Below are positions 45,416 through 59,861 of a DNA stretch of 64,000 nucleotides, piece by piece. The notes under the pieces are model-generated. The model was not told the DNA's origin. It saw only the letters and a list, made by a program, of their open reading frames with translations, and did not search any database. Source of the stretch: Ignavibacteriales bacterium (GTDB lineage Bacteria > Bacteroidota > Ignavibacteria > Ignavibacteriales > Melioribacteraceae); contig JAGUYK010000032.1 in NCBI GenBank assembly GCA_020061355.1, positions 62,001 to 126,000 on the forward strand, written 5' to 3'. The position numbers and the translations under genes are program-made. How positions within the stretch are numbered: the stretch's first letter is position 1; the number at the start of each line of letters is the position of its first letter.

Positions 45416-45487
45416 GGGCGCGTAGCTCAGTGGTAGAGCAACACCCTTTTAAGGTGAAGGTCGGTGGTTCGAGCCCACCCGTGCTCA
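45416..45487 (+). tRNA. tRNA-Lys (TTT anticodon)
   Basis: A complete cloverleaf folds: acceptor GGGCGCG/CGTGCTC with two G-T pairs, D-arm GCTC/GAGC, anticodon loop CTTTTAA giving TTT, T-arm GGTGG TTCGAGC CCACC, discriminator A. The outermost anticodon-stem pair is an A-A mismatch. CCA is not encoded. It lies exactly at the border between housekeeping genes and the accessory region, a usual integration position. Confidence 0.95.
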
Positions 45488-45493
45488 CAAAGT

Positions 45494-45890: not shown

Positions 45891-47273
45891 TTATCTCCAT
45901 AAGTTTTCAGCAAACTCTGATTTATATAAATTATTACAAAAAGAACATTTTTTATTACTTCGCCATAGTTGCTTCAATTTAGGAATTGGAACAAGCCAAG
46001 GGCTAACTTTCCAAAAATTATAATCTGATGGAATTAATAATTTTCTGACGGTTTCAATCGCTAGTATTGTACCTGCCAACAAAGATACAAAACCAAATGG
46101 AGCTAATATTTCCTTTTCATTTTGAATTTTCAACATATCCTGCCCACATAATTCCTTGAATAATGTATCATAAGATTGCCCAACAATTTTTTCTTGATCA
46201 AGGTTTGGAAACTTCAAACAAATCTTTGAAGCAGCTTCAATTGATATGTTTAATTTTGAAATATCTTCCAGTGATATCCCCAGAGCTTCTGCGATATGTT
46301 GTTCATGTGCATTCTCTAAATGATCATGTGGATATACACATTCTAAACAAGCACCACCATTAAGCGGTCGTTTATGAAAGTGAAATACAACTTCTTCAAT
46401 ATTTGTTGTTGAAGCGTCAAATACTTCTCCAGGGATTTCCGTTTGCAGGTTTCTTCTAGCTCTTCTACTATCTACCGCTATAATTAATTTTTTAAGCCAC
46501 TTATCATCTGTGTTACGATCTTGAATGGTATTAAGAAAATTAGGGTAGGCTTTGAGTCTAAGATTATGAAAATGTGGCTGTGCTATTTCGGCAAGAACTT
46601 CAGCTTTATTTTTTTCTATCATGGATTTGTCAAACCATATGCATCTATTCAAATTTCCATCACTGATTGAGTCTGGGTCAGCAATGATTATTTCCCCTTT
46701 TACATTGAATTCTTTCAAAGCATACAAGAATGCGTTTCCAATTGCACCACCACCAGCTAAATAAGTTTTTTCAAATATTACTTCACTATAAAGAATCGTT
46801 AAATCAGGGAATAATGCGTTAAAATCTATTTTTATATTTTTTTGCATCTCCGGTAGCTTAGAATTATCACCAATAATTTGTCGAAGCGAAAAAGATGATA
46901 TGTAAATTGCACTTAATAGAATTAATGAACCGTGAGGAAAAGATTGGTGTTGATAGAAGTCAAACGGATTAATTGAAATATGGACACAATTTTCGTCGAG
47001 TAAGACAAATACTATTCTAGCTTTAGTTCTAGGGGTTGCGTTGTTAATAACAATTTCAATATCAGGATTCTCAGATAGAAGATTTGTTACATTAGCAACA
47101 GTCCTTGTTAGAATTTTTTTTATATATGTAGATAATAACACATCATTTTCAGTTTGCTCATTTGCTGTAATGAGAATGGTTCGTGAAAGGATGTCTTCAG
47201 CTCGAGAATCACTCATCCCTAATATATTTCGAAGTGTAAGGATATCTTCCTGATGCGCAGTAATTTTATCCAT
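45891..47273 (-). CDS. E1-like ubiquitin-activating (ThiF-family) protein
   Basis: A 460-residue ThiF/E1 fold enzyme. The glycine loop AGGGAIGNAF (174-179 core) binds ATP, and ADPDSISDGNLNR matches the E1 pattern for adenylation of a Ub-like C-terminus. Two CxxC pairs (C309/C312 and C443/C446) form the usual E1 zinc site. Cys376 in ELCGQD is my best candidate for the thioester cysteine. The first 150 residues are an extra domain I cannot name. It is the last gene of a minus-strand operon, two bases after the JAB gene. It should activate the small Ub-like protein encoded at its head. Confidence 0.85.
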   Translation of the reverse strand: MDKITAHQEDILTLRNILGMSDSRAEDILSRTILITANEQTENDVLLSTYIKKILTRTVANVTNLLSENPDIEIVINNATPRTKARIVFVLLDENCVHISINPFDFYQHQSFPHGSLILLSAIYISSFSLRQIIGDNSKLPEMQKNIKIDFNALFPDLTILYSEVIFEKTYLAGGGAIGNAFLYALKEFNVKGEIIIADPDSISDGNLNRCIWFDKSMIEKNKAEVLAEIAQPHFHNLRLKAYPNFLNTIQDRNTDDKWLKKLIIAVDSRRARRNLQTEIPGEVFDASTTNIEEVVFHFHKRPLNGGACLECVYPHDHLENAHEQHIAEALGISLEDISKLNISIEAASKICLKFPNLDQEKIVGQSYDTLFKELCGQDMLKIQNEKEILAPFGFVSLLAGTILAIETVRKLLIPSDYNFWKVSPWLVPIPKLKQLWRSNKKCSFCNNLYKSEFAENLWR

Positions 47274-47275
47274 TG

Positions 47276-47728
47276 TTATGTTACTTTTATTTGATCTTTG
47301 ATATTAGTTTCTTCCCATCGTCCCAGAGATGTGTATGTATAACAAACAGTGTCTTCAAAAAAAGTTGCTAATGTTGTTTTCAGGCCAAACCATGGTAGAA
47401 CTAGAGACAAAGCGTTCTCATGTCTTAAGATTGCCATAAAATCATCAGCTTCAGAATGAAATGCTAATTTTGGATGAATATGAACCTGGGCAACAAGGAT
47501 ATATCTTGTTGCTCTTAAATGAACAAATAGTTCCTTCATCCCTTTTTCAGGAATTTTAATTGTTATTCTGCTGGTCAATTGATGTGGAATATATACTTCT
47601 CGTATTTCAAAATAATTATTCATCTTTGTTCCTAACCAGAAAACCATGAATTCACGACCTGAAGCACCCACAACTTGCAGTTTTGAAATAGTTTCAATAA
47701 TTAATTCCGATGATATTTGCACAATCAT
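47276..47728 (-). CDS. JAB/JAMM-family metallopeptidase (deubiquitinase-like)
   Basis: The 150-residue protein has the JAMM zinc signature: glutamate E26 in GREFMVFWLG, then HIHPK with H83 and H85, then S92-x-x-D95. This is the prokaryotic JAB form found with Ub-like genes, where it trims the tail of the Ub-like protein or removes it from targets. I start at the ATG at 47728, which overlaps the stop of the E2-like gene as ATGA and follows GGAGAGTT; a longer start at 47752 would lie inside that gene. Metal residues are all present. Confidence 0.88.
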   Translation of the reverse strand: MIVQISSELIIETISKLQVVGASGREFMVFWLGTKMNNYFEIREVYIPHQLTSRITIKIPEKGMKELFVHLRATRYILVAQVHIHPKLAFHSEADDFMAILRHENALSLVLPWFGLKTTLATFFEDTVCYTYTSLGRWEETNIKDQIKVT

Positions 47729-48165
47729 GTTGTAACTCTCCATGCATTCCATATCTGTGTTAAAATGCCGCCTAAATCATATTCAGATTTTGATTTATAA
47801 TTTTCCCACAAATCTGTTATATGACTTGTATGTTGATGATATTCCAAGGAACCTGGGGAACATATAAATGGTTTATTTGTTATTGGGTGCAAAGATTGAT
47901 TGAACACATTGTTCCCGCGGGGAAATCGGTTAGCATCCAAGAGAACACTTTCAACATCCAAAATCTCGATAGAAGGAGGTAGCTCATCCCAATCAGTACA
48001 ATTCATTCTTACTCTAATTGATCTTTTATTTGATTGAGAAAATTCAACCATCAATATTGGATACTCTTGAAGAATGATCTTCCAACTTCTTAATATTAAT
48101 AAACGCTCATTCGAACAAAACAAAGAGTGTTTCTCAAATAGACTTTTGGATAACTCTTTATGCAT
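47725..48165 (-). CDS. E2-like (UBC-fold) conjugating protein
   Basis: A 146-residue protein with the E2 pattern: a beta-strand region, then HP at 93-94 and, eight residues on, a cysteine in PFICSPG (C102) where E2 enzymes have HPN...GxICL; then a histidine-rich YHQHTSH (H110, H112, H115), W120 and a helical end. This matches divergent prokaryotic E2-like families that sit beside JAB and E1-like genes. It starts at an ATG that overlaps the upstream Ub-like gene by 8 bases. Its E2 nature is inferred from motif order and operon position; activity is unproven. Confidence 0.72.
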   Translation of the reverse strand: MHKELSKSLFEKHSLFCSNERLLILRSWKIILQEYPILMVEFSQSNKRSIRVRMNCTDWDELPPSIEILDVESVLLDANRFPRGNNVFNQSLHPITNKPFICSPGSLEYHQHTSHITDLWENYKSKSEYDLGGILTQIWNAWRVTT

Positions 48166-48460
48166 AAAGTAAGCCACCACCACCTTGACGTGGGCCCCAA
48201 TCAATATCAATCTGGTCGTGTAAATTGTTTTCGAGATAGCTTAGATCAACATTTATCTCGTTACCCCCTACCCGAGCAACCCAATTAGTAATATCTACTA
48301 CATTAAGTTCCTTCTTAGCTTTCTCCAGCTCGACTCTCACCTTTTGATGAGAAGGGATTCTATTATAACCGCTAGTTGGATACGTCCCGCTAGTAGTTAA
48401 AACAGCAACCTCAACAAACTTTTCTTCAACTTTTTCTTTTTGTTCTTTTTGCTTTTCCAT
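48158..48460 (-). CDS. Small ubiquitin-like protein with internal GGGG near the C-terminus
   Basis: A 100-residue protein. After a charged coiled start (about 1-14) come strands compatible with a beta-grasp fold (FVEVAVLTTSGTYP, QKVRVELEKAKKEL, TNWVARVGGNEINV). The end is RQGGGGLLYA: a glycine run at 93-96 followed by four extra residues, so an exposed di-glycine would need removal of LLYA, plausibly by the JAB peptidase two genes on. The ATG at 48460 has AGGTGATGCA upstream. It is the first of four coupled genes (Ub-like, E2-like, JAB, E1-like). The fold is predicted, not proven. Confidence 0.75.
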   Translation of the reverse strand: MEKQKEQKEKVEEKFVEVAVLTTSGTYPTSGYNRIPSHQKVRVELEKAKKELNVVDITNWVARVGGNEINVDLSYLENNLHDQIDIDWGPRQGGGGLLYA

Positions 48461-48488: not shown

Positions 48489-48722
48489 TTAATTCTTGTC
48501 CTTCGGAGGATTGGGATCATTACCGTGACTATCCGATTGGGAAATTCTGCCATTTTTATTATGGATGACTAACTCAGTTTTTTGATGTTGGCTAATTAGG
48601 CGACCATTATTGATTGCATCTGTTTTATTATCTGTATGCAAAGATGCTTTACTGGCACCACCTTTCTTTACATCCCAACCACCTTGTGGATTGGGCACGA
48701 TATGATGAGATTTTCTTGACAT
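48489..48722 (-). CDS. DUF2188 family small protein
   Basis: A 77-residue protein matching DUF2188: SRKSHHIVPNPQGGWDVKKGGASKAS at the start, then a segment for side-by-side basic residues (ISQHQKTELVIHNKNGRI) and SHGNDPNPPKD at the end. Such proteins occur in many bacteria; their function is unknown. It is the first gene downstream of the inverted-repeat element at 48728-48761 and is 28 bases before the Ub-like gene on the same strand, so probably part of the operon. The ATG at 48722 is chosen over 48734 because it starts the conserved domain and has TTTGGAGTATAAT before it. Confidence 0.85.
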   Translation of the reverse strand: MSRKSHHIVPNPQGGWDVKKGGASKASLHTDNKTDAINNGRLISQHQKTELVIHNKNGRISQSDSHGNDPNPPKDKN

Positions 48723-48727
48723 ATTAT

Positions 48728-48761
48728 ACTCCAAATGAATATTGGTTTATTTATTTGGAGT
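48728..48761 (-). promoter_or_regulatory. Inverted-repeat operator overlapping the ribosome binding site of the Ub-like operon
   Basis: ACTCCAAAT (48728-48736) and ATTTGGAGT (48753-48761) are perfect 9-base inverted arms, centres 25 bases apart. In the operon's transcript the GGAG of the proximal arm is the DUF2188 ribosome binding site. It lies between the WYL regulator gene and the operon. It could be the WYL protein's operator, or an RNA hairpin that hides the ribosome site. Confidence 0.6.
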
Positions 48762-48829
48762 AATAATAAAATAGAATGGCGAACTGAGAGTTCGTGATCG
48801 GGAAAAAATAATAATAATATTCTAGAATA

Positions 48830-49825
48830 TCATTTATAGTTACGGTAAGCTAGTCGTAGTCTATCCTTAAGCTGCTGTGCAATTGATTTGGGAGATATAA
48901 TTTTTACATCTTCTCCGTAACTAAGAATTTTAGAATAGAATTCATAAGATGGTTTCACCATAACTGATATTCTCAACTCTTCTTTATTATCTTTGATTAT
49001 ATTCTGTGTTCCATGGATTGGTACCGCTTTAATATACTTTCCTTGGTGATAGTTAAATGATAAAACTATTTTTATTGGTTTTTCAGAAGAGACTGTTATA
49101 CCAAACGAATATTTGAAATAATCCTCAATATCTATTGTCACCGGTGTAAAATAATTATTTGTGACGACAAGATTACTAATCCTATCTAAAGCAAAGGTTG
49201 TCAATTCCTGTTTACCTGGTATTGTCCCAATTACATACCAAAAATTTTTATCCTCTTTTAGCAGTATAGGAGCGAATTTTCGATGTTGTGGTGCTTGGTC
49301 TTCAAATTTCTGATAATCAAATGTAATTTCTTGTTCTTCTAATATTGCTTTTAGAATTGGATCGATAAACTCATTCCCTTTATTAATGGTGATTTTTTCA
49401 GTTAACAATAATGGTTTATTAGCAACTCTTTCTCGTATGCTTTTTGTAACACTAATATTATTGACAACTTTTTCTATAGCCATTAAAATGTTCTCAAAGA
49501 ACTTAAAGCCTTTATACTGCTCAAGAGTTCTTGCATAAAAGGATAGGGCCAATATATCATCAGATTTGAGTCCAAAAGCCTGTATTGTAAAATTTGGATC
49601 AGTGTAATAATAGGATTTAGTTTTCGTGTCGAATTCAATTGGTGCAGAATATCCTGTCGGCCAATTCTCTTTCATATGGTTAATATCATTTTGAACAGTT
49701 CTTTGCGTTACCGGTAAATCTTCTTCCGAAATGATTCTGACAAGGTCTTTTGTTTTTACACGTTGATTCTTTATTAATTCTCTATCTATAATCTTAATCC
49801 TTGCAAACGGGTGTTTTGTCTTCAT
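48830..49825 (-). CDS. WYL-domain transcriptional regulator
   Basis: A 331-residue protein: N-terminal winged helix-turn-helix (about 1-65, TQRTVQNDINHMKENWP), a WYL ligand-sensing domain (about 145-225; ITFDYQKF, FAPILLKEDKNFWYVIGTIPG, FALDRISNL) and a WCX C-terminal extension. WYL regulators such as BrxR and CapW repress antiphage defence operons and release them on infection signals. This gene sits just upstream of the Ub-like operon. Its first bases overlap the stop of the DUF2779 gene by four (ATGA), so the two are cotranscribed. Confidence 0.9.
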   Translation of the reverse strand: MKTKHPFARIKIIDRELIKNQRVKTKDLVRIISEEDLPVTQRTVQNDINHMKENWPTGYSAPIEFDTKTKSYYYTDPNFTIQAFGLKSDDILALSFYARTLEQYKGFKFFENILMAIEKVVNNISVTKSIRERVANKPLLLTEKITINKGNEFIDPILKAILEEQEITFDYQKFEDQAPQHRKFAPILLKEDKNFWYVIGTIPGKQELTTFALDRISNLVVTNNYFTPVTIDIEDYFKYSFGITVSSEKPIKIVLSFNYHQGKYIKAVPIHGTQNIIKDNKEELRISVMVKPSYEFYSKILSYGEDVKIISPKSIAQQLKDRLRLAYRNYK

Positions 49826-51663
49826 CGGTTACTCTCAAGTAAGTTTTTCCAATGCACCCAAATTATTACCATAGCTAGAGTATCGAGCTTACAGTATCGT
49901 AGTAATGCTTTTCGATATTTTTCTAAATCATCCAAATTTCCTTTTCGCAATCCCCACATTATATCTTCATAAGCTTGCATAGCACCCGTTCCATCCTTAA
50001 TTGTTTCTGCTTCATCATAAATGTCTAAACCAGGAAGTAGTTGATAAGGATTAATTATTTCATTTTTCTCATTCCTTTTTAATAATGATAATCCTTCCTC
50101 ATAATTATTTAACAGATCTTCGATTCGTGTGGATGTTGTTGCTTTTAGAACTGCTGGTAACGTCCATTTAATCGATGTTTTTCCTTTCATAGCCGGATGA
50201 AAATAATTATCAAGAGCTAATCGATTCATATCAACAAATTTCCCTTCATCATCTTTACCAAATTTCACCATGAATTCTAACCATTCTTTCAAAACAGCAT
50301 TATTGTAACCATACTTCTGATATTGGTTATAAATGGTTTTTAACATAGTATTTTCATAAGGAGACCAGATAAAATGTGTTCCTCTCGTTCCAATAGTTTC
50401 CATCAAAGACTCGGCAAACTTAAAACTCGGAAAAATTGGTTCAAGATTTATCCATTCTGTATGTCTTACGTTTGAATATGGATTATCAATCGTATGACAA
50501 CTCCATTGAAAGTTTACTACTTCATAAGGTCTCATATTCTTGTGCATAGGAAGAGCTGATATTGCAGTTTCAAAATCTATGAAATGAATCGGGTATTCGA
50601 GGCTATTGATAATAATACTGAGATCAGGATTAACCCATTCCAGGTTTTCAAGAGTGTTTTTTATTTGAACTTTCTGACGTTTTGCATGAGCCCCTTCCTT
50701 CAAAATACCTATGGGAAATTCTAAGAATGAAATTTTCTTTTGTTTTATTAATTCATTCGCAAATGGATTTTTATATCCCCCAATTGAACCTATATGAAAT
50801 AAATCCTTAATATGATTTTCTTCCACTGGATAATCACACCAGCATTCATTAAAGCCTGATACCGGATGTCCTTCATCAATAACATTAAATTCACACTTAA
50901 AACACTCTTTAGAAAGTTCATTATCAATCTTTTTTACACCATTTACCAAACTTTTTAGAAACAGATTAGATTCGTTAATAATTAACGGCTGCAATTCATT
51001 TACTTTTTGTTCAACATCAATTAGAGTCATAAGATCATCACTTCGTAATTCTTCAATACAACCTTCATAGGAAACATGATATTTTCGGAATTTTGAATTA
51101 TCATCAATCATTTCCTCTATATTAAATAAAGTTGTTAATCCCTCTATTTTTGTGTTCTTTGATTTATCTGGTAATAATAAAAATGGTTTTATATCCCATT
51201 CCGGATAGGATTCTTTCATCACATAGCACTGGAAAGCAACGTCTAGAATATAAGCCTCTAATTCTTTATCATTTTTTTTCCTTTTTGAAGGATCGTTAGT
51301 AGTTTCATAAGATTTAGATTTCACTTCAATTAAATTGATTGTATTACCATACTTTTCGAGTATATCGATTCGAATTAACTTACCATTAGATTCAATAGCT
51401 GCTTCAAAAATTGTTACTTTTTCTTTCAGCAATAATTCTTTAGTTACCCGTATTGCTTCATCATGATCTCTACCGGTATCGATTTCTAGACCGTCAGCGA
51501 AAAGTAATGTGGCAAGTTTACCAACCATATATCCACCTCTTGCAAGATGTTGTAGATACTCGTTTTCATCTTTTGAGTTTGGGTAATATTTTTTTCGGTA
51601 ATAAAGTTTTGTCGGACAATCATGAGCTATTTTGAAATCGCTTTTGGATAAATATTTTATCAT
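49822..51663 (-). CDS. DUF2779 nuclease-like protein (Cas4/RecB-like plus exonuclease-like domain)
   Basis: A 613-residue protein of the DUF2779 family. The N-terminal part looks like a Cas4/RecB nuclease: Cys16 in DCPTKLYY, active-site residues D100 and E113-x-K115 (IRIDILEKYGNTINLIEVKS), and further cysteines later (ECFKCEF, CWCDYP) that could hold an Fe-S cluster. The C-terminal half has an RNase H-like exonuclease pattern (IHFIDFETA, then YCKLDTLAM). Such proteins are common in defence islands; their DNA targets are unknown. It overlaps the WYL gene by four bases. Confidence 0.85.
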   Translation of the reverse strand: MIKYLSKSDFKIAHDCPTKLYYRKKYYPNSKDENEYLQHLARGGYMVGKLATLLFADGLEIDTGRDHDEAIRVTKELLLKEKVTIFEAAIESNGKLIRIDILEKYGNTINLIEVKSKSYETTNDPSKRKKNDKELEAYILDVAFQCYVMKESYPEWDIKPFLLLPDKSKNTKIEGLTTLFNIEEMIDDNSKFRKYHVSYEGCIEELRSDDLMTLIDVEQKVNELQPLIINESNLFLKSLVNGVKKIDNELSKECFKCEFNVIDEGHPVSGFNECWCDYPVEENHIKDLFHIGSIGGYKNPFANELIKQKKISFLEFPIGILKEGAHAKRQKVQIKNTLENLEWVNPDLSIIINSLEYPIHFIDFETAISALPMHKNMRPYEVVNFQWSCHTIDNPYSNVRHTEWINLEPIFPSFKFAESLMETIGTRGTHFIWSPYENTMLKTIYNQYQKYGYNNAVLKEWLEFMVKFGKDDEGKFVDMNRLALDNYFHPAMKGKTSIKWTLPAVLKATTSTRIEDLLNNYEEGLSLLKRNEKNEIINPYQLLPGLDIYDEAETIKDGTGAMQAYEDIMWGLRKGNLDDLEKYRKALLRYCKLDTLAMVIIWVHWKNLLESNR

Positions 51664-52013: not shown

Positions 52014-52310
52014 ATGCAGAAAGAATATGCAAACAAGGATTTCTACTTATCGGCATTTCTGATTGCTTCGGGTTACCGATTAAGCGATCATGATAAGAGT
52101 GGGGGGATAACAACCTTCTATTTCGAGGTAGACGAAAAACTTGAAAATACAATACAGCAATATTACTCGATGAAAACAGTCATCGAGCCTATCAGCTATG
52201 GTAACGCTCTCAAAAACTTAAAAAGCGTAATCCATTCATACGATAGACCCAATTCAAATTCGGAGAAATTAACTAATGTCAAACAATGTAAGGAATCAAC
52301 AAGAGTATAA
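52014..52310 (+). CDS. DUF5659-like small mobile-element protein
   Basis: A 98-residue protein whose layout, FYLSAFLIASGYRLSDHDKSG, FYFEVDEKLENTIQQYYS, YGNALKNLKSVIHSY, matches the DUF5659 family of small proteins common upstream of phage and plasmid primases. It starts at an ATG after AAAAAAGGAAAAT. It overlaps the primase gene by 35 bases, so the two are coupled. A role in replication of the element is an inference from position only. Confidence 0.7.
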   Translation: MQKEYANKDFYLSAFLIASGYRLSDHDKSGGITTFYFEVDEKLENTIQQYYSMKTVIEPISYGNALKNLKSVIHSYDRPNSNSEKLTNVKQCKESTRV

Positions 52311-54945
52311 AACATTTGATAGCTTAAAAGCTCACATCAAAGAAATACCTATCGAATCAGTTCTTGAACATCTAGGAATAGAGCTGCAAAAAGTCGGATC
52401 AAATTACCAAGGTAATTGTCCTACCGGACACCCATCGGAAAGCGGAACATGTTTTAGAGTAAACACAAAAGGAAAATTTTTCTTATGCTTTAGCTGCTTA
52501 GCTGGCGGAGATGTAATCAGCTTAGTTGAAGAAGTAAAGAGAATATCATTCAAAGAAGCTGTTATATGGTTGATAAAAGAATACGATATCAAACATTCAG
52601 TTAATCTAAAATATCTGAAAGACACTGTTTTAACAGAAGAGCAAAAAAAAGAAGAAGGTAGAAGATTATTATACGCAACCTATTATGAAACCTCTTATGA
52701 GTGGATGCATGAACTTTTATTTAAGGAAGAGGGAAAAGAAGCACTCGCTTACCTTGTTAACGAAAGAAAGTATGATGTCGAAACACTTAAGAAAAGTGAA
52801 TTTTGTTTCTTTCCATATAGCGTTGAAATAAGAAAGTATTTAAGAGAAAAGCACCCGAATGAATCAGACTTAATTAATGCACTACCATTAGTAGGAGCTT
52901 TCAGAGATAATTTCAGAATTGCATTTCCATATCGAGACGCAAGAGGAAGAATAACCGGGTTCATTAAAAGATCGATATTTCCCAAAGGAATATCTGTAAA
53001 GAAAAAGGATAAGATCCATGAAAATGTTAGATGGGACAGCACTTTTGGATTAAGTAAAAGAGACCTATTCAATTTATGTAATACAAAAAACAATGATACA
53101 CTTCTTATTGTTGAAGGATATCCCGATGCAGTTTATTTCAATGCCCTTGGCATGGATAACATAACAGCGGTCGGGCAAGGAAGATTAGCAGAGAGTCATC
53201 TGATTGGTCTTAAACACAAAAGAGTAAAAAACGTAATCATATCGTTTGACAACGACCTTGTAGGCCCTAATAATACAAGAGATGCTATAGAACTTCTTAC
53301 ATCTGAAAGTAATATTACTCCTTATGTTCTCGATCCAAATCTTTTATCACCTCACAAAGATCCCGATGAATATGTTAAAGCAAACGGTATCGAAGCTTTC
53401 CAATCACTTTTGAAGAAAATTGAAAAAGGGTTAATCTGGTATTCAAAGCAAATAATAAACAATTGTGATATGGAAGATGAGATGTCAAAAGATAATGCTA
53501 TTAAGAAGATTATTGAATTTGCATGTTCAACTACGGATGCCCGTGAGAATGCTGAAATATCTAATTTAATATTGCACAAGTTCAAAATCGATAAAGCAGT
53601 GTTGAACAGAATGATGAAAACTCAAAAGGATAGCGGCAAAATCGAGACATATAAACGAATCAAAGATGGTGAAGGGGCTGGTAGATTTTTTGCATTCATT
53701 GAGAAAGCAACTAACTCCTATTCATATTATGATACGAAAGAAGATGAAGTATTCCTCGGAGTTCCAAAAGATATTCTAGAAAATATTTTGGTATCGGCTC
53801 AACAAACATTACCGGAAGTATTGCCGGTACTAAAAGCTGATTTTGATGTGACTATGAATGAACGATACGATTTGAAAAAAGAGATATTTAATTTCTTTGT
53901 TCCGACTAAGTATATGCTACTTGAAAAGAATGATAAAGAGATTAATTCTAGTGAGAGGTTTGAAAATATTGAAAGACTATTGGTTAATCTGATTCCTAGG
54001 ACAGAAGAAAGACTAGCCTATATTAATTGGCTTGCTGGAATATTACAAACTAGACAAAAACAGCAGACCGCATGGGTCTTTAAGGGAAAACCAGGCGCGG
54101 GAAAGGGGCTTATGCTTGAGCATTTATTAAAACCATTGTTTGGATCAAGACAAGCCATTAAGGTTGAGGATGAACAGCTTAATGCATCATTCAACCCTTG
54201 GCTTCAGAACGCTATTTTAATTGCCTTCAATGAGGTTGCTCATGATAATAGAACAAGAAACTCTATTAATTCAAAAGTAAAAGCCATTATTACTGATTCT
54301 GAAGTTATTATTAATGAAAAGAATATCCGTAACTACACAATCACCAACCACGTCAACTGTTTATTTTTTAGTAATGAGAAGGTTCCGTTATTCATAGAAC
54401 AAGCTGACAGACGATTTAACATTGTAGTTACCGGAGGAAATCTTAGAGAGAAAGAATGGTTTAAGGATCCTGATGAATTCATAAAAAGTTTAGAAAAAGA
54501 ACTCCCCCACTTCGCCCAATTTCTAATGAATTGGGATTATGATAAAAACAAGGCGATGACTTGTATTGACAATGAAGAAAAGCAATTGATGGTTGGTGCT
54601 GCAATGAACAAGTTCGAAGAGTTCGCTCATCATTTGAAGACATGTGATTTTGACTGGTTTGAAGAAAATCTGAATCCAATCATATTGAAAAAATACTTTA
54701 ATGGTTCGGACTTACGTAACGGAAGAATTAAGAAAGGTTCTGCGCTCATAATGTTTCAAGACATTAATTCTAATTTTTCGACCAACTCAGTTGATTTCGG
54801 TAAGAAGCTTAAGCTTTATGAGATCACTGCTCAACGAGATAGAAAAGTCGGAGGTGGGGGGCATTATTACACTTGGAAACCATCTCTGCCAATTGACATA
54901 GATAGTGGCATAGATGAAGTTGGAAAGTCAAATGAAAAATCTTAG
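52276..54945 (+). CDS. Primase-helicase of a phage/plasmid-type replication module
   Basis: An 889-residue protein with three parts: a CHC2-type zinc finger (CPTGHPSESGTCFRVN, LCFSCLAGGDVISLV), a TOPRIM primase core (LLIVEGYPDAVYFNALG, ISFDNDL) and a C-terminal SF3/D5-type helicase (Walker A WVFKGKPGAGKG, LIAFNEVAHD). It would prime and unwind DNA for autonomous replication of a mobile element. The ATG follows CGGAGAAATTAACTA. An iteron-like repeat cluster begins within its last codons. Confidence 0.92.
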   Translation: MSNNVRNQQEYKTFDSLKAHIKEIPIESVLEHLGIELQKVGSNYQGNCPTGHPSESGTCFRVNTKGKFFLCFSCLAGGDVISLVEEVKRISFKEAVIWLIKEYDIKHSVNLKYLKDTVLTEEQKKEEGRRLLYATYYETSYEWMHELLFKEEGKEALAYLVNERKYDVETLKKSEFCFFPYSVEIRKYLREKHPNESDLINALPLVGAFRDNFRIAFPYRDARGRITGFIKRSIFPKGISVKKKDKIHENVRWDSTFGLSKRDLFNLCNTKNNDTLLIVEGYPDAVYFNALGMDNITAVGQGRLAESHLIGLKHKRVKNVIISFDNDLVGPNNTRDAIELLTSESNITPYVLDPNLLSPHKDPDEYVKANGIEAFQSLLKKIEKGLIWYSKQIINNCDMEDEMSKDNAIKKIIEFACSTTDARENAEISNLILHKFKIDKAVLNRMMKTQKDSGKIETYKRIKDGEGAGRFFAFIEKATNSYSYYDTKEDEVFLGVPKDILENILVSAQQTLPEVLPVLKADFDVTMNERYDLKKEIFNFFVPTKYMLLEKNDKEINSSERFENIERLLVNLIPRTEERLAYINWLAGILQTRQKQQTAWVFKGKPGAGKGLMLEHLLKPLFGSRQAIKVEDEQLNASFNPWLQNAILIAFNEVAHDNRTRNSINSKVKAIITDSEVIINEKNIRNYTITNHVNCLFFSNEKVPLFIEQADRRFNIVVTGGNLREKEWFKDPDEFIKSLEKELPHFAQFLMNWDYDKNKAMTCIDNEEKQLMVGAAMNKFEEFAHHLKTCDFDWFEENLNPIILKKYFNGSDLRNGRIKKGSALIMFQDINSNFSTNSVDFGKKLKLYEITAQRDRKVGGGGHYYTWKPSLPIDIDSGIDEVGKSNEKS

Positions 54946-55857: not shown

Positions 55858-55884
55858 TTGGACAAAACTTGTCAAGACTTCAAC

Positions 55885-57063
55885 ATGTCAATTACCACAC
55901 AATATACATTTGGTGAGAAACTTCGAAAAATCCGAGAGGATAATGGAATGCCTTTAAGGAAATTGGCTGCATTACTCGATATTGACCAATCTACACTTAG
56001 TAAAATTGAGCGGAATGAGCGTAAGGGTAATCCCATGCTAATAGATAAAATTTCGAAAATATTCAAAACGGATAAGAATGAGTTCCAAATTAGCTACGTA
56101 AGTGATAAAATTGCATTTGAATTGCTAAAAGAAGAATACTCGTTAGATATTCTAAAAGTGGCAGAAGAGAAAATAGCATATGTAAAAAAAATCATGTTGA
56201 ATACTGCACCTTCATTAAACCGTGTAGGATTTAATAAAGACCAATCACTTTTTCCGGTGCCTACAATTCAGAAACCGTTTTTGAAATGGGCCGGAGGAAA
56301 GACGCAGTTAATCCCCTCACTATTAAAATTCTTACCCAAACAATTTAATAAGTATATAGAGCCCTTTATCGGTGGAGGAGCCCTATTTTTTAATCTTAAT
56401 CACCCATTTTCTATTATAGCAGATCTCAATGAGGAACTTGTAATAACTTATCAACAAGTAAAGGAAGATATAAGCAATGTGCTTTTGGTGCTTGATGGTT
56501 ATGCAAATACTGAAGAATTTTATTATAAAATTAGAGCCATTACGCCTTCTTCTTTATCTAACACAGAAAGAGCCGCAAGATTAATATTTCTTAACAAAAC
56601 ATGTTTCAACGGACTATTTCGAGTTAATAAAAAGGGTGAATTCAACGTTCCATATGGAAAGCGTAAAGGACACTTTATAAATAGAGAGAATTTGCTAAGT
56701 GCCTCAGCATTTCTACAGAACACAGAAATTTACCACATGGATTATAAGGATACAGTGAAAAATTTCGCAAGAAAGGGTGATTTCATTTATTTAGATCCAC
56801 CATACCAACCTGTAGGTAAATATTCGGATTTTAAGAGATACACAAAAGAGTTTTTTTACGAAAAGGATCAGATAGAATTAGCAAATGTTTTTAAGGAGCT
56901 TGTAAGCCTAGGGTGTTTTGTAATGCTGACTAATTCTGACCACCCCTTCATATTGGAGCTATACAAAGATTATCATTTAGAAATAATTGAAACTAAGCGA
57001 TTAATTAGTAGCAATCCGAGCACAAGAACTGGAAAAGATATTATTGTATTAGGTGGAATTTAA
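55885..57063 (+). CDS. Helix-turn-helix - Dam-type adenine methyltransferase fusion
   Basis: The 392-residue protein joins an N-terminal Xre-type HTH (about 8-62; LRKIREDNGMPLRKLAALLDIDQSTLSKIERN) with a D12-class N6-adenine methyltransferase (FLKWAGGKTQL at 132-142, FIGGGALFFN, DPPY at 304-307). The enzyme should methylate adenine in a GATC-containing site. I choose the ATG at 55885: an in-frame TTG at 55858 overlaps a promoter -7 element. It is the first of a three-gene unit with a second methylase and an AlwI-type endonuclease; its HTH could repress the unit. Confidence 0.88.
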   Translation: MSITTQYTFGEKLRKIREDNGMPLRKLAALLDIDQSTLSKIERNERKGNPMLIDKISKIFKTDKNEFQISYVSDKIAFELLKEEYSLDILKVAEEKIAYVKKIMLNTAPSLNRVGFNKDQSLFPVPTIQKPFLKWAGGKTQLIPSLLKFLPKQFNKYIEPFIGGGALFFNLNHPFSIIADLNEELVITYQQVKEDISNVLLVLDGYANTEEFYYKIRAITPSSLSNTERAARLIFLNKTCFNGLFRVNKKGEFNVPYGKRKGHFINRENLLSASAFLQNTEIYHMDYKDTVKNFARKGDFIYLDPPYQPVGKYSDFKRYTKEFFYEKDQIELANVFKELVSLGCFVMLTNSDHPFILELYKDYHLEIIETKRLISSNPSTRTGKDIIVLGGI

Positions 57064-57064
57064 T

Positions 57065-58108
57065 ATGTCCAAAGAAGAGGGTGCTATTCATAAACAATTT
57101 CATTACTTCCCTGGGACAAGGTTTATGGGGAGTAAGAGCAAAATTATTGATCAAATTTGGAAAAGACTTAATAAAGTAGAATTTAATACTGTCTTAGATG
57201 CGTTTGGAGGAAGCAACGTAATTGGCTACTTTCTAAAGTGCCATGGGAAAAAAGTAATCACAAATGACTTCTTGACATTTAGTTACATTACTTCAAAGGC
57301 AATAATCGAAAATTCCTTTGAAAATATTACCGAAAAAGATTTAAGTGTGATTCTAAAAAGCAACAGCAATAATGGTTTTATCGAAAATACTTTCAAAGAT
57401 ATATTTTATTCTTTAGAGGATATTCAATTCCTTGACACTGCAAGACAAAATATCTCAGAGTTGAACAATGAATACAAAAAAGCTATAGCGCTTGCCGCAC
57501 TAGTAAGAGCATGTGTAAAAAAAAGGTCTAGAGGAATTTTTACATTTTCTGGAGAGCGTTATAATGATGGAAGAATTGATATGCAAAAAACCATTAAGGA
57601 GCATTTCAAAGAAAGCATCAAATTATTCAATAAAGCAGTTTTTGATAATGGAAAAAAAAATAAATCCTATAACAAACGAACTGAACTTCTTAAAGTGAAA
57701 GCAGATTTAGTATATCTAGATCCGCCGTATTTTACCCCAAATTCTGATAATGACTATACAAGAAGGTATCATTTTATAGAAGGCCTAGTAAAAAACTGGG
57801 AAGGATTAATAATTCAAGAGCATACAGCGGTTAAGAAATTCGAAAGCTACAAATCACCATTTTCAAAAAAGGATACTGTATATTCAGCTTTTGATCAATT
57901 ATTTGAGAAATATAGGAATTCCATCATCACAATTTCTTACTCTTCCAACAGTTTACCAAGTAAAGGTGAGCTTAAAGAAATGTTAGGAAAGTATAAATCA
58001 AAAGTAACTGTACATGAGATTGATCACTCTTATTCTTTTGGAAATCAAAATCACAAAATTGGTAACCCAAACAACCGAGTCAAGGAATATTTATTTATAG
58101 GGAGATGA
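57065..58108 (+). CDS. Second D12-class adenine-specific DNA methyltransferase
   Basis: The 347-residue protein has the D12 (Dam-like) pattern GTRFMGSKSKIIDQIWKRL, a SAM motif VLDAFGGSNVIGYFL and the catalytic DPPY at 219-222. It starts one base after the previous gene's stop (GGTGGAATTTAAT before ATG). Paired methylases are expected for an asymmetric type IIS site, one for each strand, as the neighbour is an AlwI-type endonuclease. Sequence specificity is inferred from that, not seen. Confidence 0.88.
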   Translation: MSKEEGAIHKQFHYFPGTRFMGSKSKIIDQIWKRLNKVEFNTVLDAFGGSNVIGYFLKCHGKKVITNDFLTFSYITSKAIIENSFENITEKDLSVILKSNSNNGFIENTFKDIFYSLEDIQFLDTARQNISELNNEYKKAIALAALVRACVKKRSRGIFTFSGERYNDGRIDMQKTIKEHFKESIKLFNKAVFDNGKKNKSYNKRTELLKVKADLVYLDPPYFTPNSDNDYTRRYHFIEGLVKNWEGLIIQEHTAVKKFESYKSPFSKKDTVYSAFDQLFEKYRNSIITISYSSNSLPSKGELKEMLGKYKSKVTVHEIDHSYSFGNQNHKIGNPNNRVKEYLFIGR

Positions 58109-58112
58109 AGCA

Positions 58113-59861
58113 ATGCCTAAAGTTTGGAACATTGGGAATACAACCGTTAGAAATCCTAAGAGAATTGAAAATGCACTTAAAGTTTTTGTTGAAGAAGGCT
58201 TTTCGGGTAATGCAAAAGGTGAAGAAAATGAAAAAAGATTACACTCAAAACTCAAAGATAGAGAAGTACTAGAATTTGACGGAGAACCTTCTGATATTAA
58301 TGGAAGGAAATGGAGAGCAGCTTTTTATCAATTAGGGTTTATAAGTTTTGAAAAATATAGTATTGGTGAAAATAGACTGACAACAACAGAGTTATTTCAG
58401 CAAATTAATAACCCGACAATCACAAATGCTTATCAATTAACGCCTGCTGGGACAAAATTAATAACAGCTAGAACTGTTCCTGAAATTGAAGATATTTATT
58501 CTCGACAATTTGCATGTTACGAATTGCCGAACTCGTTAGAATCTGGATACCCCCAGGGTAAAATGAAGCCGTTTATTTTATTCCTGCAAGTGTTGAAGTC
58601 ATTACAGGATGCTGGTGAGCAGGGTCTAAATAAATTTGAAACAGGCTTATTCATTCAAAAATTTAGGGATCATACCGCAACGTTATCAGCTGAAATTGTT
58701 GCCGAAATATTAGATTATAGAGAAAACTTAAATAGGTGTGCAAATACTGCCGAAATAAAAGCATTCAAGCAGCAATGTCTAGAAAATTTACGAAATTTTG
58801 CGGATATCGATCCTTCATCTGTGGTGCGAGATTATTCAGACACAACATTTAGATATTTTAGTTTATCAGGTTTATTTTCACGAATTGGTGAAACAATCGT
58901 AATCAGAACAAATAAAAGAGATTTCGTCACTCATCTTTTGAAAACAGAACCACTCTTTGATTTCAATACTCAACCAGTTGAATATTTCAAAAATTTTTAT
59001 AACAACTCATATAAAATACCGACGGATAATCTTGAAGTAGCTTTAGACGAAATTAAACTATTGAAGGATGGGATTCGTGATAGGCAGAATCCATTACTTC
59101 AAAGAGCAAATGAACTGTCATTAGATTCAAATATCGATGAGATACAACAAATTCGTTATGAACTTATTGAATATAATAATTGGGAAAGAGAGGAAGACTA
59201 TGCGAATGAACAGCAATCAAATGCAGCTATTGAAGAAACGATCAAATATCTCAAAGTATTAAACAACGAACATGTAGAAAATAGTCCTGACATTGATGAC
59301 AAGCCAGCTTTTTTTGAATGGGCTGTTTGGAGAAGCTTTTTAGCAATTGATGAAATAACTTGCCCAATTCATAAAACCAGAAGGTTTCCACTAGATCAGG
59401 ATTTTATGCCTAGGAATACAGCGCCCGGAGGTGGTTCTGACCTTATTTTCGAGTTCGAAACTTATGTGCTCGTAGTTGAAGTTACGTTGACTACTTCACA
59501 TCGACAGGTAGCCGTGGAAACAGAGCCTGTTAGAAGACATACGGTTCAATACAAGGAAATGTATCCTGATAAAGAAGTATATTGTTTATTCATCGCTCCA
59601 TCTGTTGATAATAATATTGCAGAGACATTTAGAATTGGTGTTTGGTATAAGTTAGATGTGGAAGAATTTATAAATATTGTTCCAATGAATTTATCAGACT
59701 TTATTGAGACTATAGAAGCGTTACTCCATAAGAAATTCAAGAATGTTGATTATTTGAATCTCTTGGATAAATGTCTTGCATCAAGAAATGTTAGGGCCCC
59801 TCAATGGAAACAAAGTATCAGCCAAGAAGTTGGAAAATGGAAAAGGAAAATAGTTGCATAA
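58113..59861 (+). CDS. AlwI-type restriction endonuclease
   Basis: A 582-residue protein that matches the AlwI family (type IIS, GGATC in the founding enzyme): start KVWNIGNTTVRNPKRIENAL, a GLFIQ(K) helix region, and the nuclease core GGGSDLIFEFETYVLVVEVT. D443 and E456 are candidate catalytic acids; the lysine of the PD-(D/E)xK motif is not at the usual spot (EVT). The ATG lies 4 bases after the second methylase. Together the three genes form a complete R-M system. Confidence 0.88.
   Translation: MPKVWNIGNTTVRNPKRIENALKVFVEEGFSGNAKGEENEKRLHSKLKDREVLEFDGEPSDINGRKWRAAFYQLGFISFEKYSIGENRLTTTELFQQINNPTITNAYQLTPAGTKLITARTVPEIEDIYSRQFACYELPNSLESGYPQGKMKPFILFLQVLKSLQDAGEQGLNKFETGLFIQKFRDHTATLSAEIVAEILDYRENLNRCANTAEIKAFKQQCLENLRNFADIDPSSVVRDYSDTTFRYFSLSGLFSRIGETIVIRTNKRDFVTHLLKTEPLFDFNTQPVEYFKNFYNNSYKIPTDNLEVALDEIKLLKDGIRDRQNPLLQRANELSLDSNIDEIQQIRYELIEYNNWEREEDYANEQQSNAAIEETIKYLKVLNNEHVENSPDIDDKPAFFEWAVWRSFLAIDEITCPIHKTRRFPLDQDFMPRNTAPGGGSDLIFEFETYVLVVEVTLTTSHRQVAVETEPVRRHTVQYKEMYPDKEVYCLFIAPSVDNNIAETFRIGVWYKLDVEEFINIVPMNLSDFIETIEALLHKKFKNVDYLNLLDKCLASRNVRAPQWKQSISQEVGKWKRKIVA

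Follow-up and report, generated by a model that had tools for sequence, protein, structure and literature searches.

The ubiquitin-like cassette and its four proteins

We analyzed a 64,000-nucleotide stretch of an Ignavibacteriales bacterium genome (contig JAGUYK010000032.1, positions 62,001 to 126,000; hereafter the window), in which five tightly spaced genes run along the minus strand from 48722 down to 45891 and encode, in order, a DUF2188 protein, a ubiquitin-like protein (Ubl), an E2-like protein, a JAB/JAMM peptidase and an E1-like protein. Judging from their sequences, the last four of these genes (the cassette) are a complete set and make up a Bil-like (bacterial ISG15-like) ubiquitin-like conjugation operon. 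They are located as follows.

48158..48460, minus strand: Ubl (ubiquitin-like modifier precursor, BilA-like), 100 amino acids (aa), ATG start
47725..48165, minus strand: E2-like conjugating enzyme (BilB-like), 146 aa, ATG start
47276..47728, minus strand: JAB/JAMM peptidase (BilC-like), 150 aa; an alternative upstream ATG at 47752 gives 158 aa
45891..47273, minus strand: E1-like activating enzyme (BilD-like), 460 aa, ATG start

An initial annotation of this DNA had described four coupled genes, in this order and on one strand, as a complete ubiquitin-like conjugation cassette, and had named Bil among the known families of this sort. All four open reading frames (ORFs) were found with ATG starts, and the spacing is exactly as had been claimed: the Ubl and E2 genes overlap by 8 bases, the E2 and JAB genes overlap by 4 bases when the shorter JAB start is taken, and 2 bases separate JAB from E1. 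The assignment to a Bil-type pathway was borne out by PADLOC model matches, by matches to solved protein chains and by a structure model of the Ubl. The description as a set of four was incomplete in one respect, since the DUF2188 gene (48489-48722), on the same strand, precedes the cassette as a fifth.

The catalytic motifs that had been read in the E1, E2 and JAMM proteins are all present. Residue counts given below are numbers of alignment rows, the window included (26 rows for E1, 25 for E2, 24 for JAB and 24 for Ubl); the split JAB of locus L025 and the frame-shifted Ubl of L011 were left out. These motifs are invariant except for E1 G179 (24/26), and given such near-complete invariance across 24-26 aligned rows, they are not chance occurrences.

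The E1-like protein consists of an E1-N domain (Pfam PF14463, residues 6-154) followed by a ThiF domain (PF00899), with glycine loop residues G174, G176 and G179 and CxxC pairs at 309/312 and 443/446. Its ThiF identity, which the initial annotation had put forward, was confirmed by Pfam in 26/26 members. Both CxxC pairs and C376 are invariant in all 26 rows, and C376 is aligned by phmmer to residue 417 of the solved BilD chain 8tyz_A; Cys417 is described as the catalytic cysteine of BilD (PMC11354881). The E-value against 8tyz_A was 7.7e-7 for the window protein by phmmer and 2.6e-34 for the family profile, whose best solved match is BilD and whose next matches are eukaryotic E1s.

The E2-like protein carries C102, E108, H110 and H115, which constitute a CEHH motif, and also H93. 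The spacing of the motif (+6 E, +8 H, +13 H) is identical to that of C138, E144, H146 and H151, the CEHH residues given for BilB in PMC11354881. C102, H93, H110, H112 and H115 are found in 25/25 rows and E108 in 23/25. In Pfam, Metal_CEHH matches residues 95-140 (8e-8), and DUF7665 matches residues 27-92 below its cut-off (5e-5). The protein also matches the PADLOC BilB model (6.8e-6, model positions 27-99 of 159), and its predicted UBC fold is carried by the match of the family profile to solved BilB (8tyz_C, 8.5e-11).

In the peptidase, the JAMM residues E34, H91, H93, S100 and D103 (numbered on the 158-aa form, eight higher than in the initial annotation) are invariant in 24/24 rows, and E34 is aligned by phmmer to residue 33 of the BilC E33A mutant in 8tyx_B. 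The match to that chain had an E-value of 1e-12 by phmmer and 2.6e-30 with the family profile, and the PADLOC BilC model was matched at 6.9e-13 (model positions 11-158 of 168). BilC is the only PADLOC Bil model matched over most of its length; the BilB and BilD models are matched partially. For E1, E2 and JAB alike, the solved chains matched are solely or best Bil proteins.

The Ubl was modeled as one beta-grasp domain resembling SUMO and solved BilA, in agreement with the fold expected by the initial annotation. Its C-terminus reads GGGG-LLYA. The last three glycines are present in 24/24 Ubls and are followed by 1-5 further residues in 20 of them, the remaining four ending on the glycines. 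This suggests that most Ubls of this group are precursors that need trimming and that some are made in mature form. The invariant JAMM residues and the LLYA tail are consistent with trimming of the window Ubl by the JAB peptidase.

We also considered whether a sulphur-carrier or cofactor pathway (ThiS/ThiF or MoaD/MoeB type) has been mistaken for a conjugation system. The E1 is a ThiF-family adenylyltransferase, and CxxC zinc sites are common to it and MoeB-type enzymes. However, such a pathway does not agree with the E2-like protein and its invariant cysteine, the JAB peptidase, the E1 cysteine aligned to that of BilD, or the glycine run and short tail of the Ubl. The best solved E1 matches, BilD and then eukaryotic E1s, also speak against it, as do the ThiF/MoeB-type NCBIfam models, which score far under their cut-offs on the window E1 (adenyl_thiF, 28.1 against 275.25 bits; MoeB NF004281, 11 against 266). 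We therefore regard this explanation as highly improbable.

Relatives and comparison with known Bil systems

Relatives on plasmids were collected by tblastn of the E1, which gave 11 records, six of them at a coverage of at least 80%; five of these six (L011-L015) and one weaker record (L016) were fetched. An alignment-led scan of genome contigs yielded 25 loci (L017-L041). After removal of the duplicates L027 (the same as L011) and L035 (the same as L013) from the 30 entries L011-L015 and L017-L041, 28 distinct loci remained. The window protein alone, used as the query in one scan each of genome contigs and viral contigs, found no close relatives, and none in phages. Among the 39 nearest genomes, only the window's own has the E1. 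Ten of 395 genomes of the phylum matched it, and the nine others reached 19.6-31.7 bits over partial stretches and were not used.

The association of the four genes, which the initial annotation had expected in related genomes, is kept: the order Ubl-E2-JAB-E1 on one strand was found in 24 of the 28 distinct loci. The exceptions are L012, where an insertion sequence lies ahead of a JAB remnant, L039 and L040, which lie at contig ends, and L041, which is a short E1 fragment only. In the E1 tree, the relatives carry seven phylum labels (Bacteroidota, Verrucomicrobiota, Acidobacteriota, Myxococcota, Campylobacterota, Fidelibacterota and Pseudomonadota). Within the tree, the window groups with L017 (46% identity; support 100/98) and, together with it, with L018 and L028 (100/99), all three labelled Bacteroidota, and the four PADLOC-type BilDs form a group of their own (100/99). 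We relied on these three groupings only, since the deep joins are unsure through the long branches of MoeB, L016, L053 and L052. The split between PADLOC BilDs plus MoeB and the rest received only 57/86. Sequences with E1-N did not come out as a single clade that excludes the NGR234 E1 (2 changes); of 200 bootstrap trees, 47% united them in one. In Pfam, E1-N was found in 25/26 E1s of the window's branch and in none of the four other-kind E1s scanned (L016, L065, L050 and L051). On this sequence evidence the window cassette is a member of a related branch marked by E1-N, and the E1 tree leaves the joining of the three kinds unsettled.

Of the two other kinds, one was solved as 8tyx-8tz0 and is like the loci of NGR234 (L016) and Rhizobium etli p42a (L065); stretches of 8tyz_A are nearly identical to the L016 sequence, so that the NGR234-type locus is the kind solved as Bil. 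It shares with the window the gene order, four separate genes, a CEHH E2, the E1 catalytic cysteine, the JAMM residues and a Ubl with one beta-grasp domain. These loci encode a DUF2604 Ubl, a Metal_CEHH E2 and a 514-519-aa E1 in which Prok-E2_C comes ahead of ThiF, whereas the window has a GGGG-tailed Ubl without detectable sequence similarity to theirs and an E1 of 460 aa with E1-N in front. A Bil E1 is described with an inactive adenylation domain at its N-terminus; in the window E1, Pfam sees E1-N where the NGR234 and R. etli E1s have Prok-E2_C, and the alignment of the E1 family profile to 8tyz_A starts at residue 81. Identities between the window and NGR234 are 21% for E1, 20% for E2 and 31% for JAB. 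At the R. etli locus (L065 4103-9133), the DUF2604-type operon is followed on the same strand by TIR-domain and caspase-family genes.

The other kind is that described by the PADLOC models. The genome of L025 has a separate locus of this kind (L050), in which, by eye, a small protein, a DUF7665 protein (E2-like), JAB and BilD follow one another; on the BilD model, its E1 scores 554 bits and the E1-N cassette of the same genome 25.5. The PADLOC-type BilDs of L050 and L051 have no E1-N in Pfam, unlike the window E1. Within the branch, the BilD model is matched by 20/26 E1s with an E-value of 1e-3 or lower (best 5.4e-12).

Metal_CEHH, found in the second half of the window E2, and DUF7665, found weakly in its first half, are the E2 families of these two other kinds. 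Because the window E2 matches both, the E1-N branch may bridge them. Metal_CEHH matched 23/25 branch E2s, and was rejected as a marker of the branch because its matches to the E2s of NGR234 and R. etli (2.8e-98 and 1.5e-71) are far better than that to the best branch member (3e-12).

The initial annotation had taken the order of the genes and a lone, small Ubl as possible marks of a distinct subtype, and this suggestion failed on both counts. The order Ubl-E2-deubiquitinating peptidase-E1 is that of BilABCD (PMC11354881), and short Ubl ORFs are common: branch Ubls range from 90 to 272 aa, and in 12 of 23 relatives (alignment A6) they are shorter than 170 aa. BilA has been described with two ubiquitin-like domains (PMC11354881), whereas the window Ubl model has one; given that the solved chain 8tyz_B is only 83 residues long, two domains are not defining for solved Bil. 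Multi_ubiq domains were found by Pfam in the Ubls of L013 and L014, and the N-terminal part of the L014 Ubl matches the solved multi-ubiquitin proteins 9d59, 9cd2 and 9d5b and also 8u38, deposited as BilA.

The bacterial operons with the Pfam E1-N domain, which make up the window's branch, have the same gene order and the JAB, E1, E2 and ubiquitin gene neighborhood outlined in PMC1779556. The window member differs from them by the DUF2188 gene in front and the WYL gene on the same strand. Since the E1-N domain is already in Pfam, the cassette adds a member to an already known kind of system and does not found a new one. Its interest lies in being a compact, complete and apparently intact set of E1, E2, Ubl and deubiquitinating peptidase from a branch distant from the characterized Bil operons. 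With a single-domain Ubl and a GGGG-LLYA precursor tail, each step is open to testing in vitro. Because PADLOC Bil models score the branch weakly, E1-N operons may be undercounted.

The element in tRNA-Lys

The cassette lies on an element of about 22.5 kb, for which the following features were found in the window.

45416..45488, plus strand: tRNA-Lys (TTT) at the left edge of the element (ARAGORN)
52276..54945, plus strand: replication gene of the element, CHC2/Toprim primase with DUF5906 (Pfam)
55858..59861, plus strand: restriction-modification cluster of two D12-class adenine methyltransferases, then an AlwI-type endonuclease (Pfam)

The last 43 bases of the tRNA gene (45446-45488) are the left direct repeat, of which an exact copy lies beyond the window, 22,465 bases further along (G000:C47:129911). 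The DNA just within the right end encodes a small HTH_17 protein and a tyrosine integrase that matches Phage_integrase at 6.4e-17; the integrase and right repeat occupy G000:C47:128765-129953 (L044 2866-4054), also outside the window.

In the genus-mates G396 and G397, the sequence that follows about 20 bases after the tRNA is one that here sits about 5 kb past the right repeat (83% and 81% identity over about 1 kb), and in the genus-mate G310 the tRNA site continues with sequence about 2 kb further on (75%). The interior of the element had no match in the three fetched stretches of these genomes. Given these empty-site continuations, the tRNA-Lys site in the genus-mates lacks both the element and an additional stretch of about 5 kb. 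The earlier placement of the cassette on a mobile island was thus borne out by the 43-bp repeats, the integrase and a site that is empty in three genus-mates. The 5-kb stretch beyond the right repeat, missing in two of them, may be a second insertion. The E1 was found in none of four genus-mates, three of whose genomes are only 66-87% complete, and this absence fits a mobile element.

Among the other genes of the element, the first D12 methyltransferase carries an N-terminal helix-turn-helix (HTH). The N-terminal 380 residues of the primase and DUF5906 protein match the PADLOC models RT_UG29 and RTasDnaG-like, probably through a shared primase domain.

Upstream genes, regulation and proposed working

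Upstream of the cassette lie the following features.

48489..48722, minus strand: DUF2188 small protein, 77 aa (Pfam DUF2188, 1.4e-19), matching the PADLOC phage-defence candidate PDC-S16 (9.2e-33)
48727..48762, no strand: dyad of 15 bp (14/15 pairs, 6-nt spacer) directly ahead of the DUF2188 start, a candidate operator
48830..49825, minus strand: WYL and WCX regulator, 331 aa (Pfam WYL 1.7e-13, WCX 2.2e-8), candidate repressor of the operon
49822..51663, minus strand: DUF2779 protein, 613 aa (Pfam DUF2779, 5.7e-23), its gene overlapping the WYL gene by 4 bases

The DUF2188 gene, separated from the Ubl gene by 28 bases, heads the putative transcription unit. The score of the dyad was reached by 0/1000 dinucleotide shuffles of the 107-base gap and by 2/598 equal tiles of the window, probably including its own; no second copy with up to 3 mismatches was found in the window. 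A scan for sigma-70 promoters gave 32 matches against a shuffle mean of 33.3, with none on the minus strand before DUF2188. The initial annotation had placed a WYL regulator and a DUF2779 nuclease beside the cassette. Both genes are indeed upstream on the same strand, but the word nuclease was based on the DUF match, and the sole nuclease-like match of the protein is to the PADLOC Cas4 model at an E-value of 0.061.

To see what regulators accompany such operons, we surveyed the window and the 24 four-gene loci (25 in all), using Pfam where tested, record annotation, and otherwise ORF reading. In 10/25, a regulator of a type that responds to DNA damage is encoded upstream, which suggests how such pathways are switched: a divergent HTH protein with an M78-type peptidase in seven (L015, L018, L019, L023, L028, L037 and L038), WYL in two (the window and L014) and LexA/S24 in one (L017). 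A further six have an HTH protein with another zinc-peptidase-like protein (L011, L020, L021, L024, L025 and L026; the M78 match was 0.0094 in L021 and absent in L020), one has a sigma-54 activator (L022), and L036 has no upstream DNA. Sigma-54 activators adjoin the cassette at L020 (RtcR, 1362-2963; labelled Acidobacteriota) and at L022 (1403-3112; labelled Myxococcota), possibly as a different way of switching the operon.

The WYL protein CapW and the HTH and peptidase pair CapH and CapP are described as controlling adjoining operons upon DNA damage, and accompany 219 of 544 Bub (bacterial ubiquitination-like) operons (PMC13373217). The regulators found here resemble these types, which also occur with systems other than Bub. 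One alternative is that the operon belongs to or overlaps Bub, a diverged pathway, rather than Bil proper. In addition to the regulator types that Bub operons have in common with the E1-N branch, this is favored by the varied Ubl sizes and by Multi_ubiq in L013 and L014 together with the multi-ubiquitin matches of L014. According to PMC13373217, protection against phage has yet to be demonstrated for Bub operons. Conversely, the E1, E2 and JAB profiles match solved Bil proteins best, with no listed chain named Bub, the candidate E2 catalytic cysteine is present in 25/25 rows, and PMC12687455 counts Bil-type and Bub operons alike as mainly anti-phage. We consider membership in Bub possible but less likely than not.

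We consider it likely that the cassette is a Bil-like operon of the E1-N branch, borne on the integrase-encoding element in tRNA-Lys and working, by analogy with characterized Bil proteins, along the following lines. The JAB peptidase would cut LLYA off the Ubl precursor after G96. The E1 would adenylate the exposed glycine and then hold the Ubl as a thioester on C376, from which it would be transferred to C102 of the E2 with the help of H115. No gene was recognised as an E3, and E1 and E2 would jointly link the Ubl to lysines on target proteins; the JAB peptidase would also take it off targets. From its type and position, the WYL protein may repress the operon from the dyad before DUF2188 and release it upon DNA damage, for example that caused by a phage. 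The likely outcome would be interference with phage propagation, and a defence role is plausible. The Bil system of Collimonas is reported to attach its Ubl to the phage central tail fibre and to obstruct tail-fibre function (PMC11364771). A role in blocking assembly is therefore the first candidate, and our guess is that the target here would likewise be a phage structural protein.

Several observations weigh against this interpretation. No solved chain matches the Ubl credibly in sequence, and the PADLOC Bil models match none of the 24 Ubls. The PADLOC BilD model scores 22.6 bits on the window E1, over residues 168-280 only (model positions 209-321 of 453), compared with 554 bits for the PADLOC-type BilDs of L045 and L050, and the window E1 lacks Prok-E2_C. 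Several relatives look broken, by a frame shift across Ubl and E2 in L011, by the insertion sequence in L012 and by the split JAB in L025; as read from these sequences, the function of the cassette is not always kept. In seven of the 25 four-gene loci (L013 and L029-L034), the upstream genes are an Xre/RES pair and not a DNA-damage-type regulator. Finally, a phmmer comparison of the window WYL protein with the other loci detected nothing related and missed even the WYL protein in L014, so that these two WYL genes were probably acquired separately.

The pair in L013 and L029-L034 consists of an Xre/MbcA/ParS antitoxin-like and a RES toxin-like gene, divergent from the cassette; Pfam was run on L013 only. 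Such a toxin-antitoxin-like pair in 7/25 loci is one of the points in favor of a stress-response or addiction pathway, in which host proteins would be tagged after DNA damage, or the element would be maintained, with no direct anti-phage action. The regulator types linked to DNA damage and the location on a mobile element also agree with it, and addiction or protection was proposed for such mobile operons in PMC1779556. However, the element also bears restriction-modification genes and a phage-defence candidate gene, and the Collimonas relative that was tested obstructs phage tail-fibre function (PMC11364771). We consider this explanation rather unlikely.

A more far-reaching proposal would set the E1-N branch apart in function, as a third class of bacterial ubiquitin-like pathways. 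Such a class would be weakly seen by defence models, would occur in about seven phyla and would often be accompanied by DNA-damage-type regulators; in the window it would have recruited DUF2188 as a co-expressed fifth component that may be a partner, a first substrate or a helper. We think this proposal quite unlikely. DUF2188 was rejected as a Bil-specific partner, as phmmer finds it in none of the other loci, and no literature connecting it with ubiquitin was found. It was matched in 6/39 relatives' genomes, the window's own included, and four of the five other contexts were inspected and labelled by eye: one restriction-like and AbiE-like, one patatin-like and nucleotidyltransferase-like, and two among ordinary genes. 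DUF2188 thus looks like a free-moving gene, near defence-like genes in two of four cases. In the genus-mate G395 (L061 1148-1384), the relative has a restriction-like cluster on one side and an AbiE-like pair on the other, and it ends in GNDPNPPKD as the window protein does. In G132 (L063 124-4033), a DUF2188-like stretch with one in-frame stop lies beside patatin-like, nucleotidyltransferase-like and other genes that, by eye, resemble a CBASS-type cluster.

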